A stretch of DNA of 43,538 nucleotides. It comes from Fidelibacterota bacterium. Lineage in GTDB: Bacteria > Verrucomicrobiota > Kiritimatiellia > JAIPIQ01. The notes below the pieces were generated by a model. The model saw only the letters and a program-made list of their open reading frames with translations. It was not told the DNA's origin and did no database searches. Below are positions 28,401-37,621 of the stretch, one piece after another. The position numbers and the translations under genes were made by a program. The stretch's first letter is position 1; each line of letters starts with the position of its first letter. Location of the stretch: positions 1 through 43,538 of the forward strand of contig JAIPIQ010000003.1 in the NCBI GenBank assembly GCA_021734645.1, in the 5' to 3' direction.

Positions 28401-28807
28401 TCCTCTTCTGTTTCCGTCAACGCGATGACCGCCGCCCCACCGAGGTGAACCCCCTCGCGCCACACTACCTCGTGTACGTGCTCGACGACGGCAATGTGCG
28501 CCTCACCTTCGCCCAGCCCAAGCAGTCCCTGGAACTCTTCCGGACGCTCGCCGCGGGCCAGTCGTCACCGCTCAACCCCCTCTGCGACCTCTTCGACGAC
28601 CGCACCAGGAACGGCGCCGACATGGCGCACGAGAACAATCTCCTGGAACGCGCCGTCGAATCCATCAAAGCCACCTTCGGCAAACGCGCCGCCGCCGCCT
28701 TGTTCTCCGGCCGTGATGGCAAGCTGCCGTCCGCCCAGGATACCCCGGCCTCCAGCGCCGATCTCGAACTCGTCACCTGGCTCGTCATCATGGGGGGCAA
28801 GGAATGA
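25493..28807 (+). CDS. PLD-domain SNF2-family helicase (defence-type); N-terminus without a canonical start
   Basis: PLD motif FLHGKAYHI...LGSSNFT; Walker A ADSVGLGKTFEA; VIDESHNF; LLSATPVNN; QRFGRIDRIGSRN. First ATG is 25799, but conserved-looking coding (IKPEAKLTFVSAYFTVSAYDALKSELESAESLRFLFGEP...) is in frame upstream to the stop at 25490-25492. Confidence 0.88.
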   Translation, partial: SYLLYSISSSYRLAVLRSQIKPEAKLTFVSAYFTVSAYDALKSELESAESLRFLFGEPSFISEIDTDKHAKKNFCLTEGGLELAHSLAQRPAAKACAAWINRMVEIRSIRQSGFLHGKAYHIQNGNASKAILGSSNFTVPGLGLRHSGNNIELNLVIDSDRDRNDLLDWFEEVWRDDALTKDVKAEVLRYLERLYANHSPEFIYYLTLFHIFREELEGAGDLDDTLKRTTLLESKVWNMLFSFQKDGVKGAINKILSYNGCILADSVGLGKTFEALAVIKFFNLRGERVLVLCPKKLRENWTAYRPQNSLCQLPEDKLDYDVLSHTDLSRTQGESDGHNLSTFNWGNYGLIVIDESHNFRNNAGGKEKDDGSRRRSRYERLMADVIQAGMKTKVLLLSATPVNNQIADIRNQISLIAGGDVARSENPAHDGAFQENLGVPSVKETARQAQSKFTTWTRRPPAERQTRDLINQLGSDFFKLLDGLSIARSRAQIKRYYAKELATLGGFPDRSKPHAEYPEIDAEGKFLTFQQLDAKISSLTLSLYHPSSYLRKDLPQPVLDEYAQRIGNFTQEGRERILISMMKVNFLKRLESSIDSFRLTLSRTIQKIDDLKAKIESFQNTKNQNPTFDFANLSDEDFDDLDVDPEDLKIGGKHKISLEDLNLPDWKLAVSQDRDQLQYLLDHAAPIHPARDAKLLRLRALVEHKLDHPSTNREGEPIRKIIVFTAFADTAQYLWKHLAEPVHAARGTHAALISGGGANRTTLGKTDFEHILTNFSPRAKGRDRRPELPQDEEIDLLIATDCISEGQNLQDCDYLINYDIHWNPVRIIQRFGRIDRIGSRNARVSRVNFWPTKDLDAYLNVKQRVEARMALVDLTASGEDNLLNVEQFEDLIASDLHYRNLQLKRLQHEILDLEDLNEDSISLADFSLADFRLDLLRFLEANREELESSPLGLYAVIPPDPQLPATQPGILFCFRQRDDRRPTEVNPLAPHYLVYVLDDGNVRLTFAQPKQSLELFRTLAAGQSSPLNPLCDLFDDRTRNGADMAHENNLLERAVESIKATFGKRAAAALFSGRDGKLPSAQDTPASSADLELVTWLVIMGGKE

Positions 28808-30372
28808 GTTCACGTATTTTCATCAGCAGCGTCCAAAAGGAGTTCAAGGCAGAGCGAACCGCCCTCGCCCGGTTTATTGCGGATGATCCGCTACTCGGAA
28901 AACAATTTGAAACCTTTGTTTTCGAACGGGATGTACCGGCCACGGACCGACGCCCGGATGCGGTCTACCTCGACGAATTGGCCCGCTGCGACCTCTACCT
29001 GGGTCTGTTTGGCGACGAATATGGCTGGGAAAACAGCGATGGCCTTTCGCCGACCCATTTGGAATTCAACAAGGCTGCCGAACTGCACATTCCCCGGTTG
29101 ATTTACGTCAAAGGACAAGACGATCAAAACAAGCACCCGAAGATGCGCAACCTGATTCACGCTGCTGGGAACGAAATCATACGGCGACGCTTCGAGTCCT
29201 ACGACGATTTACGCGCCAATATCTACGCCAGCCTCGTAAGTCATCTGGAATCCACCGGCGTCCTGCACCAGTTGCCGTGGGATGCAACGCCCGCGAGAGG
29301 GGCAACTCTCGGCGATGTGGATGCAAAGGCCATAGCGAAATTCGTCCGGGGCGCCCGCAAGTGGCGCAACTTCCCACTAGCTGAGGATGCCTCGCCCGCC
29401 GAAGTGTTGGACAAGCTTCACATGCTCAATGGGGATGCCCCCACCCAGGGAGCCATTCTGCTCTTCGGGCGCGAACCCCAGCGATTCCTGCCCGCCTCCC
29501 TCATCAAATGCGCTCATTTCCATGGAACCACTATCGCCAAACCGATACCCGCTCACTTGGATGTCAGGGGTACCGCATTTGAACTGGTCAATGGTGCTGT
29601 TGATTTCGTCCTGTCAAAAATCAACGTCAGCGTGGGCACCCGTAAACAGAGCAGCCAGGCACCGGTCGCGTATGAAATACCGCTTGAAGTCGTCCGCGAA
29701 GGCATTGTAAATGCCGTAGCCCATCGCGACTACACCAGTAATGCCAGTGTGCAGGTCTCCTTGTTTGCCGACCGCCTGGAAATCTGGAATCCCGGCTATC
29801 TCCCGCCCCCTTTGACCCTTGAGCTACTCCGTCACGAGCATCGTTCCTTCCCCCGTAATTTACTCTTTGCCGAAGCACTCTATCTCGTCCGCTACATCGA
29901 GCGCTACGGAACCGGAACGGGCGACATGATCCGCCTATGCCGGGAGGCAGGCCTGCCCGAGCCCGACTTCCGGTTAACCGACGGTTTCGTCACTATTATT
30001 CAACGGCTCGCCCGCATGAAGTCGGCCCCAATCACCCCGCAAGTGGGCCAGAAACCACGCCAGTCGGGGCCAGAGTCGGACGCCTCACCGACCCAGTCAC
30101 CGACCCAGTCACCGACCCAGTCACCGACCCACTCGACCGACCCAGTCAACCGCCTTTTGCTGGCACTGGAAGTCTGTCCCAAGTCGGCGGGAGAGCTGCG
30201 GCAATCGCTTGACCTCAAGCACAGACCGACCTTTCGCGACAACTACATTTATCCCGCTCTGGCAGCCGGTCTCATCGAGCGCACCATTCCAGACAAACCC
30301 ACCAGCCGCCTCCAGAAATATCGCCTGACCGAAAAAGGCCGCGCCTTGCTTTCCAAATCCGAAACCTCATAG
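28804..30372 (+). CDS. DUF4062 + RecG-like GHKL ATPase + winged-helix protein
   Basis: N-terminal SRIFISSVQKEFKAERTALARFI...YLGLFGDEYG (DUF4062); EVVREGIVNAVAHRDY and YGTGTGDMIRLCREAGLPEPDF (AlbA/RecG-type HATPase); C-terminal wHTH. ATGA overlap with the helicase. Confidence 0.85.
   Translation: MSSRIFISSVQKEFKAERTALARFIADDPLLGKQFETFVFERDVPATDRRPDAVYLDELARCDLYLGLFGDEYGWENSDGLSPTHLEFNKAAELHIPRLIYVKGQDDQNKHPKMRNLIHAAGNEIIRRRFESYDDLRANIYASLVSHLESTGVLHQLPWDATPARGATLGDVDAKAIAKFVRGARKWRNFPLAEDASPAEVLDKLHMLNGDAPTQGAILLFGREPQRFLPASLIKCAHFHGTTIAKPIPAHLDVRGTAFELVNGAVDFVLSKINVSVGTRKQSSQAPVAYEIPLEVVREGIVNAVAHRDYTSNASVQVSLFADRLEIWNPGYLPPPLTLELLRHEHRSFPRNLLFAEALYLVRYIERYGTGTGDMIRLCREAGLPEPDFRLTDGFVTIIQRLARMKSAPITPQVGQKPRQSGPESDASPTQSPTQSPTQSPTHSTDPVNRLLLALEVCPKSAGELRQSLDLKHRPTFRDNYIYPALAAGLIERTIPDKPTSRLQKYRLTEKGRALLSKSETS
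30085..30132 (+). repeat. 12-bp tandem repeat (TCACCGACCCAG) x4 inside the DUF4062 gene, encoding (SPTQ)n
   Basis: Three identical 12-mers plus one with a terminal change (...CCAC). Confidence 0.95.
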
Positions 30373-30407
30373 TTCAATCTTCAACCTGTAACCCTCATCC
30401 TTTAAAA

Positions 30408-33400
30408 ATGACCGACCACCGCCCCCGAATCGCAACCAGCCTGAAAGCCTTCGCCGCTGTACCCGTGCGGCAGGCCGCCCTCGACTTGCTCGGCGCCCTT
30501 GGCTACCGCAGCGACAAAACCGTCGCCCTCGAAGGCTCGAAGCCCGGGGCCTTTCTCGACTTCATCGCGGAACACAACCCCGAGGCCGACTTCGACGAGA
30601 AAAAAGGCCCTCTTCCCCGAGTGGAAATCCGCCGACCTCCTCTTCCAGCTCACCGACGAGGAAATCTCCCGCGAAGCCAGTCTCTTCCAGGACACCACCG
30701 TCAAGCCAGGCCTCCTCCGCTCCTACCTCTTCTTCGCCATCGAGCTGACCGGCGGCGACTACGCCCGCGGCAAGCTCACTGCCATTGCCCGCCAGATCAA
30801 CCGTGTCTTCCCCATGCCCGTTATGGTGCTCATCAAGCACCTCACGGACAAAACCCCCGTCCTCTCCATCGCCGTCCTCAACCGCCGCCAAAACAAAGTG
30901 CGGGCCGACAAGGACGTGCTCGGCAAGGTCACCATCATCCGTGATATCTCCCTCGCCAGCCCCCACCGCGGCCACCTCGACATCCTTGACTCCTTTGCCT
31001 TTGAGAATCTCGTCCACCCACAGAAGAAGCCCATCACCGACTTCGACACCCTCCACGCCGCCTGGGAAGAAGTCTTCAACGTCGAACTCCTCAACAAGCG
31101 CTTCTACAAGGAACTCGCCAACTGGTATTTCTGGGCGCTCCCGCAAGTCGAATTCCCAGCCGACCTTGAACCTGACGCCGAAAAGCGCCGCGCCACTGGC
31201 CTCATCCGCCTGCTCACGCGCCTGGTCTTCTGCTGGTTTCTCAAGGAAAAGAACCTCATCCCCGAGGGACTTTTCCACCCCACCGAGCTCGAAAAGATTC
31301 TCAAGGGCTTCGATCCCGAGAGCGAGACCAGCTCAACCTATTACCAGGCGATCCTGCAAAATCTCTTCTTCGCCACGCTCAATCAACGGATGGGCAAAGA
31401 CAGCAGCGGAAAGCCCTATCGGAGATTCGTGTTCGATGAGGGGTATCCGAAGAACAAAAAGAATCACGACCTGAACAACTATTTTCGATACGAGAAACTC
31501 TTCACGGTAAGTCCTGTGAGGCCCTCGCCCTTTTCGAGGATATTCCATTCCTCAACGGCGGTCTATTTGAATGCCTGGACAAACGCGACGAAGACGACCA
31601 AAAGACCTTCTATCTCGACGGCTTCTCCCGCAACCCCAAAAAACGGCCCCAGGTACCCGACCGCCTCTTTTTCGACAGCGGGGAAACCGCCGACCTTTCC
31701 GAGGTCTATGGCGACAAAAAGCGCAAGTCCGAAAAAGTCACCGGCCTTATCACCATCCTGAACCGCTACAAGTTCACCATCGTCGAGAACACCCCCATCG
31801 ATCAGGAAATTGCCCTCGACCCCGAACTGCTCGGCAAAGTCTTTGAAAACCTCCTCGCTTCCTACAACGAGGAAACCAAAACCACCGCCCGCAAGCAGAC
31901 CGGCTCCTTCTACACCCCGCGCCCCATCGTCGAATACATGGTGGACGAGTCCCTCAAGGCCCACCTCTCCCGCAGCCTGGTCGAAAAGGCCGGCATGAAG
32001 GAGGGCGACGCCAAGACGGGGCTCGACATCCTCTTCACCTACACCGAGCGGGCGCACGCCTTCAGCCCCACCGAAGTGTCCACCCTCATCACCGCCATCG
32101 ACGAGGTGAAAATCCTCGACCCCGCCTGTGGCTCCGGCGCTTTCCCCATGGGCGTGCTCCACAAGCTCGTCTATATCCTTGGCAAACTCGATCCCGACAA
32201 TGACCGGTGGAAACAGACCCAGCTTGCCAAACTCGATTCCGCTCCCATGCGCGAGGAACTCGAACGCGCTTTCGCCGACAACAACGACGACTACGGCCGC
32301 AAGCTCTACCTCATCGAAAACTGCCTCTACGGCGTGGACATCCAACCCATCGCCATCCAAATCTCCAAACTTCGCTTTTTCATCTCCCTTGTTTGCGACC
32401 AGAAGTCCAATCGCGACAAAGCCAAAAACCACGGCATCCGCCCGCTGCCCAATCTCGAAACCAAATTCGTCGCCGCCGATACCCTCATCGGCCTGCCCAT
32501 CCCCGAGCCAGACCTTTTTATAAAGGCGTTGATCGAGCCCATCGAGAAAGAAATTGAACAAGCCTATCACAGCCATTTCGCTATCCAGCGTCGCGATCAA
32601 AAGCTGGCCCTGCAAAAGAAAATCAAAACGCTCCGCCTGAAACTTGCCGACGCCATCGTCAATGGCTTGGGGGCAAGCAAGAATGCTGAAGTAACGAAGA
32701 AGGCGCATCATGTCGCCGCATGGGACCCCTTCGACCCACAATCCTCCGCCGACTTCTTCGATCCGCATTGGATGTTCGGACGGGCTTTGAAGGACGGGTT
32801 TGATGTGGTGATTGGGAACCCGCCGTATGTCCGCGCCGATGAACAGAGCGACTGGAACCAGCACCAACGCCAGCAAATTCTTGCCAGCGGCGATTATGAA
32901 ACCCTTTGGGAGAAGTGGGACCTCTTTGTTCCTTTCATTGAACGCTCATACAAACTCCTCAAGCGTGGCGGGGTCAGCGCCCTGATCGTCTCCGACGCCT
33001 TTTGCCACGCCAAATACGCCCAGAAGTGCCAGAACTGGCTGCTGAAGAACAGCCTCATCCTGCGTCTCGATTTTTGCGGCGACCTTAGAATCTTCGATGC
33101 CGCTGTCCATAACGTCATCCCTTTCATTCAACGGGCCGACGGCACCGAGTGGAAACCCCAACGCCGCGTTCACAAGGAAGTCTTTGGCAATGTCACCTTA
33201 CTGCCAACCGATATGCAGGCAAACTTAACCTACAGGGCGTTTTTCCCAGAGGAGGGCAAGGTAGCTACCTTTTCAGGCGCTACAATATCATTGGACCAGA
33301 TTTGCTATGTATCATACGGATTGCGCCCAAACAGTGATGAAAAGGGAGCCAAAGGTGAATTCTCCACAGCAGCTTTAGTTTCTGAGGAAAAGGATAAAAT

Positions 33401-34067
33401 ACACTGCAAACCCTATGTTGAAGGAAAGCATCTCGGACCTTGGCTGCCACAAACACATTTATGGATTGAATGGGGAACGGATCGGGCTCCTTCTCGTTTT
33501 TGCCGTCCGACATTTGCCGAACTGTATGAGGGCCCAGAAAAAATTCTTGCCCAACGAAGCCCTGGCCCTGATCCTGTAATCTCTTATGACATGCTGCAAC
33601 TCATTTATACACCAGCATGCGTAGGTTTTGTTCCCTGGCACCATCTCTCCGGCGTCCGCAACAACTCGCTCAAGAAAGCCGCGCGTTACGCTGATGAAAA
33701 ACCGCCGCGCCCCGACCTGCCACGCCGCGAGGACCTGGAAAAGACCAGCCGTCGGTTCTCCGTCAAATATTTGCTTGGGGTAATGAATTCCTCGACAGCC
33801 TGCGACTTCCTGCGCGCCAACCGCCGCAGCAACATCCATCTCTACCCCGACGACTGGAAGAAGCTTTCGATTCCGGACGTGCCGTCTGAAGAGCAGCAGC
33901 CCATCATTGATCTGGTCGACCGCATTCTCGCGGCCAAGACCGCCGACCCAGCCGCCGATATTGCCGCTTTCGAAGCCGAGATTGACCGCCTTGTCTCCTC
34001 CCTGTACGGCATCACGGCCACCGACATCGAGATTGCGGAGAGCAAGAAAGGGGCACAACCAACGTGA
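30408..34067 (+). pseudogene. Eco57I/DrmMI-like N6-adenine DNA methyltransferase, interrupted by two apparent single-nt frameshifts
   Basis: Motif I KILDPACGSGAFPMGVLHKL and motif IV VVIGNPPYVRADEQ. Coding runs in frame 0 (30408 to about 30603), frame +1 (about 30604-31502), then frame 0 again (about 31503-34067). Confidence 0.85.
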
Positions 34068-35999: not shown

Positions 36000-37031
36000 A
36001 TGCAAAGGGTAGTCGTAGCGGGTTTTCTTGGGGCCGGCAAGACCACGTTGTTGCTCGAGCTGGCCAAACGCTACACGGAGGCCGGCTTCAAGATCGCCAT
36101 CATTGAAAACGAGGCCGGGCAGCAGGGGATCGACGGAGCCATATTGAGCAGCGCAGGCTACCAAGTCCGGGAAATCTATGCCGGTTGCATCTGCTGTACC
36201 TTGCAAGGCCATCTGACCACAGCCCTCGATGACATTTATGACAATTATCATCCGGATATTTTGCTGGTTGAGCCCTCCGGCATCGCCTCGCCCGGCATGA
36301 TCAAGGACGCGCTCTGGAATCATAAGAAAGGCGAGCAGGGAACGTTGAGTTTACTCATGCTGCTGGATCTGGCGCGGCTGGCTGCCATCCAGGAAAAGGC
36401 CAGCTTCTTCATTGAACGCAGCCTCCAGGACGCGGACATCGTCGTTCTGACCAAGACCGATCTGGTCGCGGGTCCAGTGTTCGGTGAAGCGGAAGCGTTC
36501 ATCCGGCTAAACAACCCGCAGGCGCCCATCGTTCGTCTGGATTACCGGGATGCGGGAACGCTCAGTGCTTTAATCAATCACATCAGTCATTTCCATGCCC
36601 GGCAGATGAATACCGGCAACCAGGTCTTTGACTCGTTTCGATATTTCACGGCGGTTTCCCGAGAACAAACGGGATCTGTCGCGCGGCGCCTTGGTTCCGA
36701 AGAGCTCAGGAAATATTTAGCGGAAATTCTGCAGGGCATCGCAGCCGGGCTGCGGGACGCGGGAAAACCCCTGATCGGACATATTAAATGCCTTTTGAAG
36801 CCCGTGGGCGCGGGCTATTTGACGGCCAGCCTGCTGGATTATGACAACACCATTTACCATGGCGGCGAGCTGGGCGCTCTGGAAGGCGACTACGCATTCC
36901 GCATCAACGCGGTACTGGTTGATTTTGAAAAAGAGAAGCTGGAACGCATCCTCACGCAAGGGCTGGAGACGTTTCCGCGAGGTCCTTCCGGGTTTCCGGG
37001 GGGATTCTTTACTGCACATTCTGCCGAATAA
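36000..37031 (+). CDS. CobW/COG0523-like GTP-binding protein
   Basis: FLGAGKTTLL (P-loop), GCICCTLQGHL (CxCC), LVEPSGIASP, TKTDLV. Confidence 0.9.
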   Translation: MQRVVVAGFLGAGKTTLLLELAKRYTEAGFKIAIIENEAGQQGIDGAILSSAGYQVREIYAGCICCTLQGHLTTALDDIYDNYHPDILLVEPSGIASPGMIKDALWNHKKGEQGTLSLLMLLDLARLAAIQEKASFFIERSLQDADIVVLTKTDLVAGPVFGEAEAFIRLNNPQAPIVRLDYRDAGTLSALINHISHFHARQMNTGNQVFDSFRYFTAVSREQTGSVARRLGSEELRKYLAEILQGIAAGLRDAGKPLIGHIKCLLKPVGAGYLTASLLDYDNTIYHGGELGALEGDYAFRINAVLVDFEKEKLERILTQGLETFPRGPSGFPGGFFTAHSAE

Positions 37032-37045
37032 GCGAAGAGATCAGC

Positions 37046-37201
37046 GTGTAGGAGTAGGTGTAAGAGTAAGTGAAAGGCACTCTCTGGCCGCTCATCACCG
37101 CCCGCCCTGAATCGCAGATCCCGCCGACGGTGCTTCGCGGGGCTTGGCGCGAGGGCGCGCAGTGAGGGAAGAAATCCGTACTCGTACACGTACTCCTACA
37201 C
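37046..37201. repeat. MITE-like 156-bp element with 23-bp terminal inverted repeats
   Basis: GTGTAGGAGTAGGTGTAAGAGTA (37046-37068) versus TACTCGTACACGTACTCCTACAC (37179-37201), 21/23 complementary. Confidence 0.8.
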
Positions 37202-37478
37202 TCGAATCTCTTGGGGGGGGGTGGGATGTTGGTTCTGCTCTTGAGCGATTTCTCGGATGGGTTTCGATGGAAGGAAATCGCGTAAGCGTATCCGAGCAAG
37301 GGTGGCGATTAAGAGTGGGCAGCGCACGAACTGTTTCGTGAACTGCCTCGTAAACTCCGACTGTATAACTCCATCGCAACCTTTGCCGTGCACTTCATCG
37401 AGCCGGGGGCACGGGAACCCGTAACCGTTCACGAGTGATGTCATGAGGAATGCGCTTTGATTACAAGACCTTTTGAGT

Positions 37479-37578
37479 GCGCGTGCCTGCACGCGCTTTA
37501 TACGCCGGCGCCAGCGCCGGCATTGGAAGTCTTCTCCCGGAGCAGGCTCCGGGTCAGAAAGCGCGTGCAGGCACGCGC
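37479..37578. repeat. Symmetric array of four 18-bp palindromes (8-2-8), itself an inverted repeat with perfect 21-bp outer arms
   Basis: 37479-37496 GCGCGTGC-CT-GCACGCGC; 37504-37521 GCCGGCGC-CA-GCGCCGGC; 37536-37553 CCCGGAGC-AG-GCTCCGGG; 37561-37578 GCGCGTGC-AG-GCACGCGC; gaps 7/14/7 nt. Confidence 0.93.
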
Positions 37579-37592
37579 CCTCAGAAATAGCA

Positions 37593-37621
37593 TTGACACG
37601 TATATCATCAGCATATACCGT
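37593..37621 (+). promoter_or_regulatory. brnTA promoter/operator: TTGACA plus dyad GTATAT-N7-ATATAC
   Basis: TTGACA 37593-37598; perfect dyad 37600-37618 between the -35 and -10 regions; start codon at 37628 without an evident Shine-Dalgarno. Confidence 0.55.

Follow-up and report, generated by a model that had tools for sequence, protein, structure and literature searches.

A palindrome array upstream of brnTA as a probable REPIN within a truncated IS66-type MITE in a Kiritimatiellae genome

The four-palindrome array that lies upstream of brnTA in the stretch of DNA analyzed here (43,538 nt in full, hereafter the window) is very probably a REPIN, or BIME, of a Kiritimatiellae-wide REP family linked to RAYT transposases, and it forms the core of a truncated IS66-type MITE within a dispersed repeat of about 390 bp. 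No earlier report of such a REP family in the class was found in the literature searched. The genome from which the window derives (G000) comprises 2.6 Mb in 224 contigs and is 69% complete.

The array and its repeat family

Four perfect palindromes with 8-2-8 geometry had been noted in the preliminary description, and their positions and spacing proved exact to the base. Palindromes 1 (37479-37496; GCGCGTGC-CT-GCACGCGC) and 4 (37561-37578; GCGCGTGC-AG-GCACGCGC) enclose palindromes 2 (37504-37521; GCCGGCGC-CA-GCGCCGGC) and 3 (37536-37553; CCCGGAGC-AG-GCTCCGGG) at centre-to-centre distances of 25, 32, and 25 bp. The outer two, with their TTT/AAA flanks, form a perfect 21-bp inverted repeat, and the inner two (GCCGGCGCCAGCGCCGGC and CCCGGAGCAGGCTCCGGG in full, with no strand assigned) are untagged. 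Seven perfect 8-2-8 palindromes were present in the 43.5-kb window, 4 of them inside 100 bp; 100 first-order Markov simulations averaged 1.5 per window and never exceeded 6. The palindrome coordinates stand, but the extent first given to the array does not. By the family consensus, outer REP 1 spans 37471..37499 on the + strand (TTTT-GAGT-GCGCGTGCCTGCACGCGC-TTT) and outer REP 2, inverted, spans 37558..37587 on the - strand with a decayed tag (CCTCAGAAA here versus ACTCAAAA in relatives). The full unit, with tag and T-runs, is therefore 37471-37587, and it sits inside a larger insert that begins at 37421.

The outer palindromes fit a class-wide REP unit, TTTGGAGT-[8-2-8 hairpin]-TTT, the version in the window being TTTTGAGT-hairpin-TTT; one or the other of these 5' sequences (tag GGAGT/TGAGT) is conserved. 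We searched for the pattern GAGTGCG..CGCTTT and found 20 occurrences in this genome compared to 0 for a reversed-pattern control, 74 compared to 0 in G007, and 96 compared to 3 in G284, with enrichment in many other genomes of the class. The copy number of GAGT-tagged REPs by this strict pattern is thus about 20 in this 69% complete genome and up to 96 elsewhere; REPs usually exceed 100 per genome (PMC2817692). The aligned copies shared a TTTG 5' of the tag that the search had not imposed (94, 71, 94, and 77% conserved by position), and their conservation ended directly after TTT. The stems varied with compensation, the inner five pairs being 86% complementary compared to 44% when shuffled (maximum 54% in 1000 shuffles), as befits a short palindrome with a small loop. 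Many arrays are built like that of the window, with tagged units in inverted orientation on either side of one or two untagged hairpins. These data establish the repeat family and the conservation of its hairpins. A GTAG or GTGG tag 5' of the hairpin is required of REPs (PMC3733652, PMC6006769) and is absent from this family; because its tag differs from GTAG, we do not claim strict membership of the GTAG superfamily.

The whole array can also be read as a pair of 50-nt inverted-repeat arms that are 82% complementary. Its RNA fold had a z of -9.45, zero shuffles folding equally well, and the predicted minimum-energy structure is a long stem. A long stem with two internal hairpins, or a cruciform, had been suggested in the preliminary description. 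Such an element could depend for its function on pairing between the outer palindromes, which in the window are perfect inverted copies. However, among 14 distinct arrays whose outer REPs differ, the hairpin pairs were kept at 118 of 140 positions and the long-stem pairs at 79 of 140, and in a second copy of the array the left core reads AG where the window has CT, a change that disrupts the long stem and leaves the hairpin intact. In diverged arrays, therefore, the individual hairpins persist and the long stem does not, and we regard a long-stem function as highly improbable; the stem is perfect in the window because its two outer REPs share one sequence.

That second copy, the product of a search of the host genome that the preliminary description had proposed, lies on contig C133 (11697-11824) with 95% identity, and only these 2 copies of the array are present in the 69% complete genome. 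When the array and its flanks were used as the query, 15 of the 346 genomes searched in the class gave matches; for some of these the match was confined to the dispersed repeat in the query flank, so that fewer than 15 have the array itself. Relatives of the array occur in about eight other genomes, as clear arrays in G068, G069, G336, and G337 and as more divergent, free arrays in G162, G163, G181, and G335. When named genomes were scanned, the outer hairpin turned up in the Kiritimatiellae MAGs CSSed165cm_27R1 and CSSed165cm_338 and in the PVC MAGs T3Sed10_164 and T3Sed10_310R1, relatives that point to a Kiritimatiellae MAG as the most likely source of the window. The same scan found single hairpins of the exact pattern in Rhodanobacter, Burkholderiales, and others, which are probably unrelated REPs or chance matches.

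Association with RAYT transposases

A RAYT or Y1 transposase had been named as the partner to look for, and one was present on contig C168 of this genome. It is an IS200-like protein of 184 aa (RAYT) whose gene has a sister array on both sides, GGAGTGCGGCAGC..GCTGCCGC (GGAGTGCGGCAGCGTGAGCTGCCGCTTT ... inverted). The product passed the NCBIfam model REP_Tyr_transpos (80.3 against a cutoff of 80) and also Pfam Y1_Tnp. We fetched its closest homologues from the class, giving 30 RAYT loci with C168 included. A REP lay within 150 bp at 20 of the 30 loci, with 66 hits compared to 0 for the reversed-pattern control over 91 kb; the other 10 had no REP of the pattern inside that distance. Genomes with a close RAYT (n = 44) had a median of 13 REPs compared to 1 for 96 genomes without a match (p = 3e-18, a nominal value since the genomes are related and the 96 were the first no-match genomes in listing order).

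The REP family is thus associated with RAYT both physically and in abundance. RAYT genes flanked by cognate REPs were found for the family and not for the exact stem GCGCGTGC, for which the link is the common unit and the sister array. RAYTs of E. coli and other bacteria cleave single-stranded tagged REP hairpins in vitro (PMC8266576), and we infer that this REP family, too, is mobilized by its RAYTs. The proposal of a REP/BIME-like mobile element is borne out by the second genomic copy, the class-wide family, and the associated RAYT. The array is neither single-copy nor without conservation in relatives, two of the three observations that had been named in advance as together speaking against such an element. 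A different BIME family was seen in G181 (C85:215671-215886), where a RAYT is preceded by tandem alternating hairpins GGACGGCTCCCCGAGCCGTCC / GGACGTTTCGGGGAAACGTCC.

Nesting within an IS66-type MITE beside brnTA

To the left of the array, the + strand at 37035..37420 is the left part of a dispersed intergenic repeat of about 390 bp that hosts the insertion. There were 96 matches to 37030-37470 in this genome, representing about 30 substantial copies and many fragments. Uninterrupted copies read GGGANCCCACTTCATCGCC across the insertion point, where they have a single GGGANCCC. The repeat is a mosaic with an inverted 34-bp module (GTGTAGGAGTAGGTGTAAGAGTA..) at 37035-37068, its reverse complement at 37179-37212, and a further module, GTATCCGAGCAAGGGTGGCGATTAAGAG; 12 further genomes of the class contain short modules of this kind.

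The insert itself, a truncated IS66-type MITE (37421..37588, + strand), has kept its left end and body. It begins with an exact 13-bp left TIR, GTAACCGTTCACG (37421..37433, + strand), directly preceded by the left copy of an 8-bp target-site duplication, GGGAACCC (37413..37420, no strand). The intact homologue, 194 bp with the array inside, was found at C133:11670-11863, where the layout is CAC-GGGAACCC-GTAACCGTTCACG ... CGTGAACGGTTAC-GGGAACCC-ACTTC, with the 8-bp duplication GGGAACCC on both sides. In the window the right TIR is missing, there being no second match at 2 or fewer mismatches anywhere in it, and homology ends at the edge of the array (37588), just 5' of the brnTA promoter region. 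That search of the window also spoke against the idea that brnTA is MITE cargo with a right TIR past brnA. Another element, in G336 (C112, position 821), likewise keeps its left end and loses homology at the right edge of the array, which possibly is a preferred breakpoint (two cases only).

Exact 8-bp duplications surround the same ends at C117 (CACCGGAG) and C188 (GGCGGCGG) and in MITEs of relatives (loci L274, L287, L277, and L297). Besides C133, then, six other elements show the duplication, and the window keeps its left half only; no target duplication was evident at C192 or at the IS66 element in G164. The latter (C676:167-2680) has GTAACCGTTCACGGG at both ends with an intact 476-aa IS66 transposase between them, adjoined by a 304-aa ORF, and the same terminal repeats surround an IS66 transposase in G125 (C174). 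The MITE ends, the target duplication, and an IS66 transposon that shares those ends are therefore all observed, and the window copy shares the TIR at one terminus. A search of this 69% complete genome for an IS66 transposase found none, and the mobilization of the MITE by IS66 would probably occur in trans. The best-scoring IS66 hits (L199-L227) had no convincing TIRs of this type around them, so only a subset of IS66 elements has such ends.

The TIR motif was present in 19 of the 346 genomes. Besides the type in the window, the MITE cores were GGAGTGCGGCAGC (C117 and C188), GTAGGCGGGGGCGG (C27 and C192), CCAGGCTCCAGCCTGG (G337), and ATCCCGAGC..GCTCGGGAT (G069). Other TIR-motif sites had no obvious REP, so the association of REPs with the MITE is frequent and not universal. 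Both array copies of this genome lie in the same MITE, and several MITEs with these ends have palindromic cores, which could mean that the palindromes are merely the interior of an IS66-type MITE and unrelated to RAYTs. We consider this unlikely, since related arrays without TIRs occur in G162, G163, G335, G181, and G336 (C52), the REP unit extends across the class but the TIR motif only to those 19 genomes, and the association between REP and RAYT is strong.

Some elements depart from the usual layout. Two MITEs have collapsed, one with a single palindrome between its ends (G337:C78:9286-9398) and one with its core gone and TTTTGAATTCAAAA kept (G069:C244), which suggests deletion between the outer REPs. 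In a third element (G069:C234:1-172) the long terminal repeat of the MITE (..CCGTTCACGGGTTGGAATGACACGGG) runs straight into the outer REP on both sides, making REP and MITE end one symmetric unit. REPs may have inserted into MITEs, or MITE ends may have picked up REPs.

The neighbors on the right are brnT, a toxin gene (PF04365; 37628..37927, + strand), and a brnA-type CopG antitoxin gene (PF12441; 37924..38211, + strand). The array sits a short way upstream of brnT, its predicted fold is strong, and a TTGACA, identified by eye at 37593, follows close downstream, so a regulatory structured RNA or attenuator of brnTA, placed there by selection, was weighed and appears very unlikely. The copy on C133 does not adjoin brnTA, and the likely promoter is downstream of the array, which is hence outside the expected transcript. 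The promoter and terminator scan found neither an intrinsic terminator nor a sigma-70 site above threshold, no Rfam family reached its gathering score, and the REP unit behaves as a class-wide dispersed repeat. The only Rfam hits were to MIR898, at 34.3 bits where the gathering score is 75, and, weakly, to TeloSII; both were taken for chance matches to a long hairpin. Nothing indicates that the array serves brnTA; its position there is probably accidental, the link looks incidental, and a brnTA-specific role would appear to be absent. At 28804-34067 the window also holds an ORF starting SRIFISSVQKEFKAERTALARF followed by two ORFs split by a frame break, which together look like an adenine-specific methylase or restriction enzyme (NPPY motif). 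The C133 array, too, adjoins a large methylase-like gene (L005, 8425-11466).

Proposed origin and comparison with known systems

The reading that we favor, a REPIN at the core of a MITE, suggests the following course. The array consists of two inverted REPs (TTTTGAGT-hairpin-TTT) around two untagged inner hairpins, of a family that cognate RAYT tyrosine transposases may mobilize, or may once have mobilized, through single-stranded hairpin DNA. The REPIN would have travelled in the centre of an IS66-type MITE (TIR GTAACCGTTCACG, 8-bp duplication), and this MITE would have entered a dispersed repeat of about 390 bp that was already in place, the IS66 transposase probably being supplied in trans. 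The window copy would later have lost its right end at the brnTA junction, after which movement by the MITE ends should have ceased.

A broader and more tentative proposal, which we think could well be wrong, is a non-GTAG REP superfamily of Kiritimatiellae with a four-hairpin transposition unit and two unrelated routes of spread, one by RAYT alone and one by IS66-type MITEs that repeatedly acquired different REP pairs for their core, the MITEs carrying REPs between bacterial families. REPs are usually regarded as needing a RAYT encoded on the chromosome. Pairs of REPs inside MITEs, with their own ends and duplications, would have a RAYT-free route for jumping and transfer. The REP tag is "most often GTAG", and some RAYTs tolerate tag changes for binding (PMC8266576); the GAGT-tagged family would extend the range of tags that RAYTs could recognize.

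Like the REPINs of Pseudomonas fluorescens SBW25 (PMC3116915) and BIMEs (PMC2817692), the arrays have inverted REPs around a spacer, are intergenic and dispersed, show compensatory stem changes, have a RAYT flanked by inverted REPs or BIMEs, and vary in abundance with RAYT. Unlike them, they have the tag GGAGT/TGAGT rather than GTAG/GTGG, often contain two additional inner hairpins without a tag, have a lower copy number, and in this genome are embedded in an IS66-type MITE. With the GTAG-1 and GTAG-2 REPs (PMC3733652) they share short small-loop hairpins, a tag separated from the stem by unpaired bases, and, opposite the tag, a 3-bp motif that is conserved and in this family reads TTT. They differ in having no GTAG; GGAG and GAGT are absent from the main text of that report, in which GTAG repeats of Opitutus terrae, of the PVC group, had already been described.

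IS66 elements have ends GTAAGCG and 8-bp repeats (PMC11946415), and ISPpa5a and ISPpa7 also have 8-bp repeats (PMC3281130). Unlike the IS66 family and its MITEs, the element described here has the TIR GTAACCG, is 194 bp and non-coding with a REP pair inside, and in the window lacks its right end. Like them, it has a TIR starting GTAA and an 8-bp duplication, and its TIR is identical to that of the IS66 transposon in G164 (C676).
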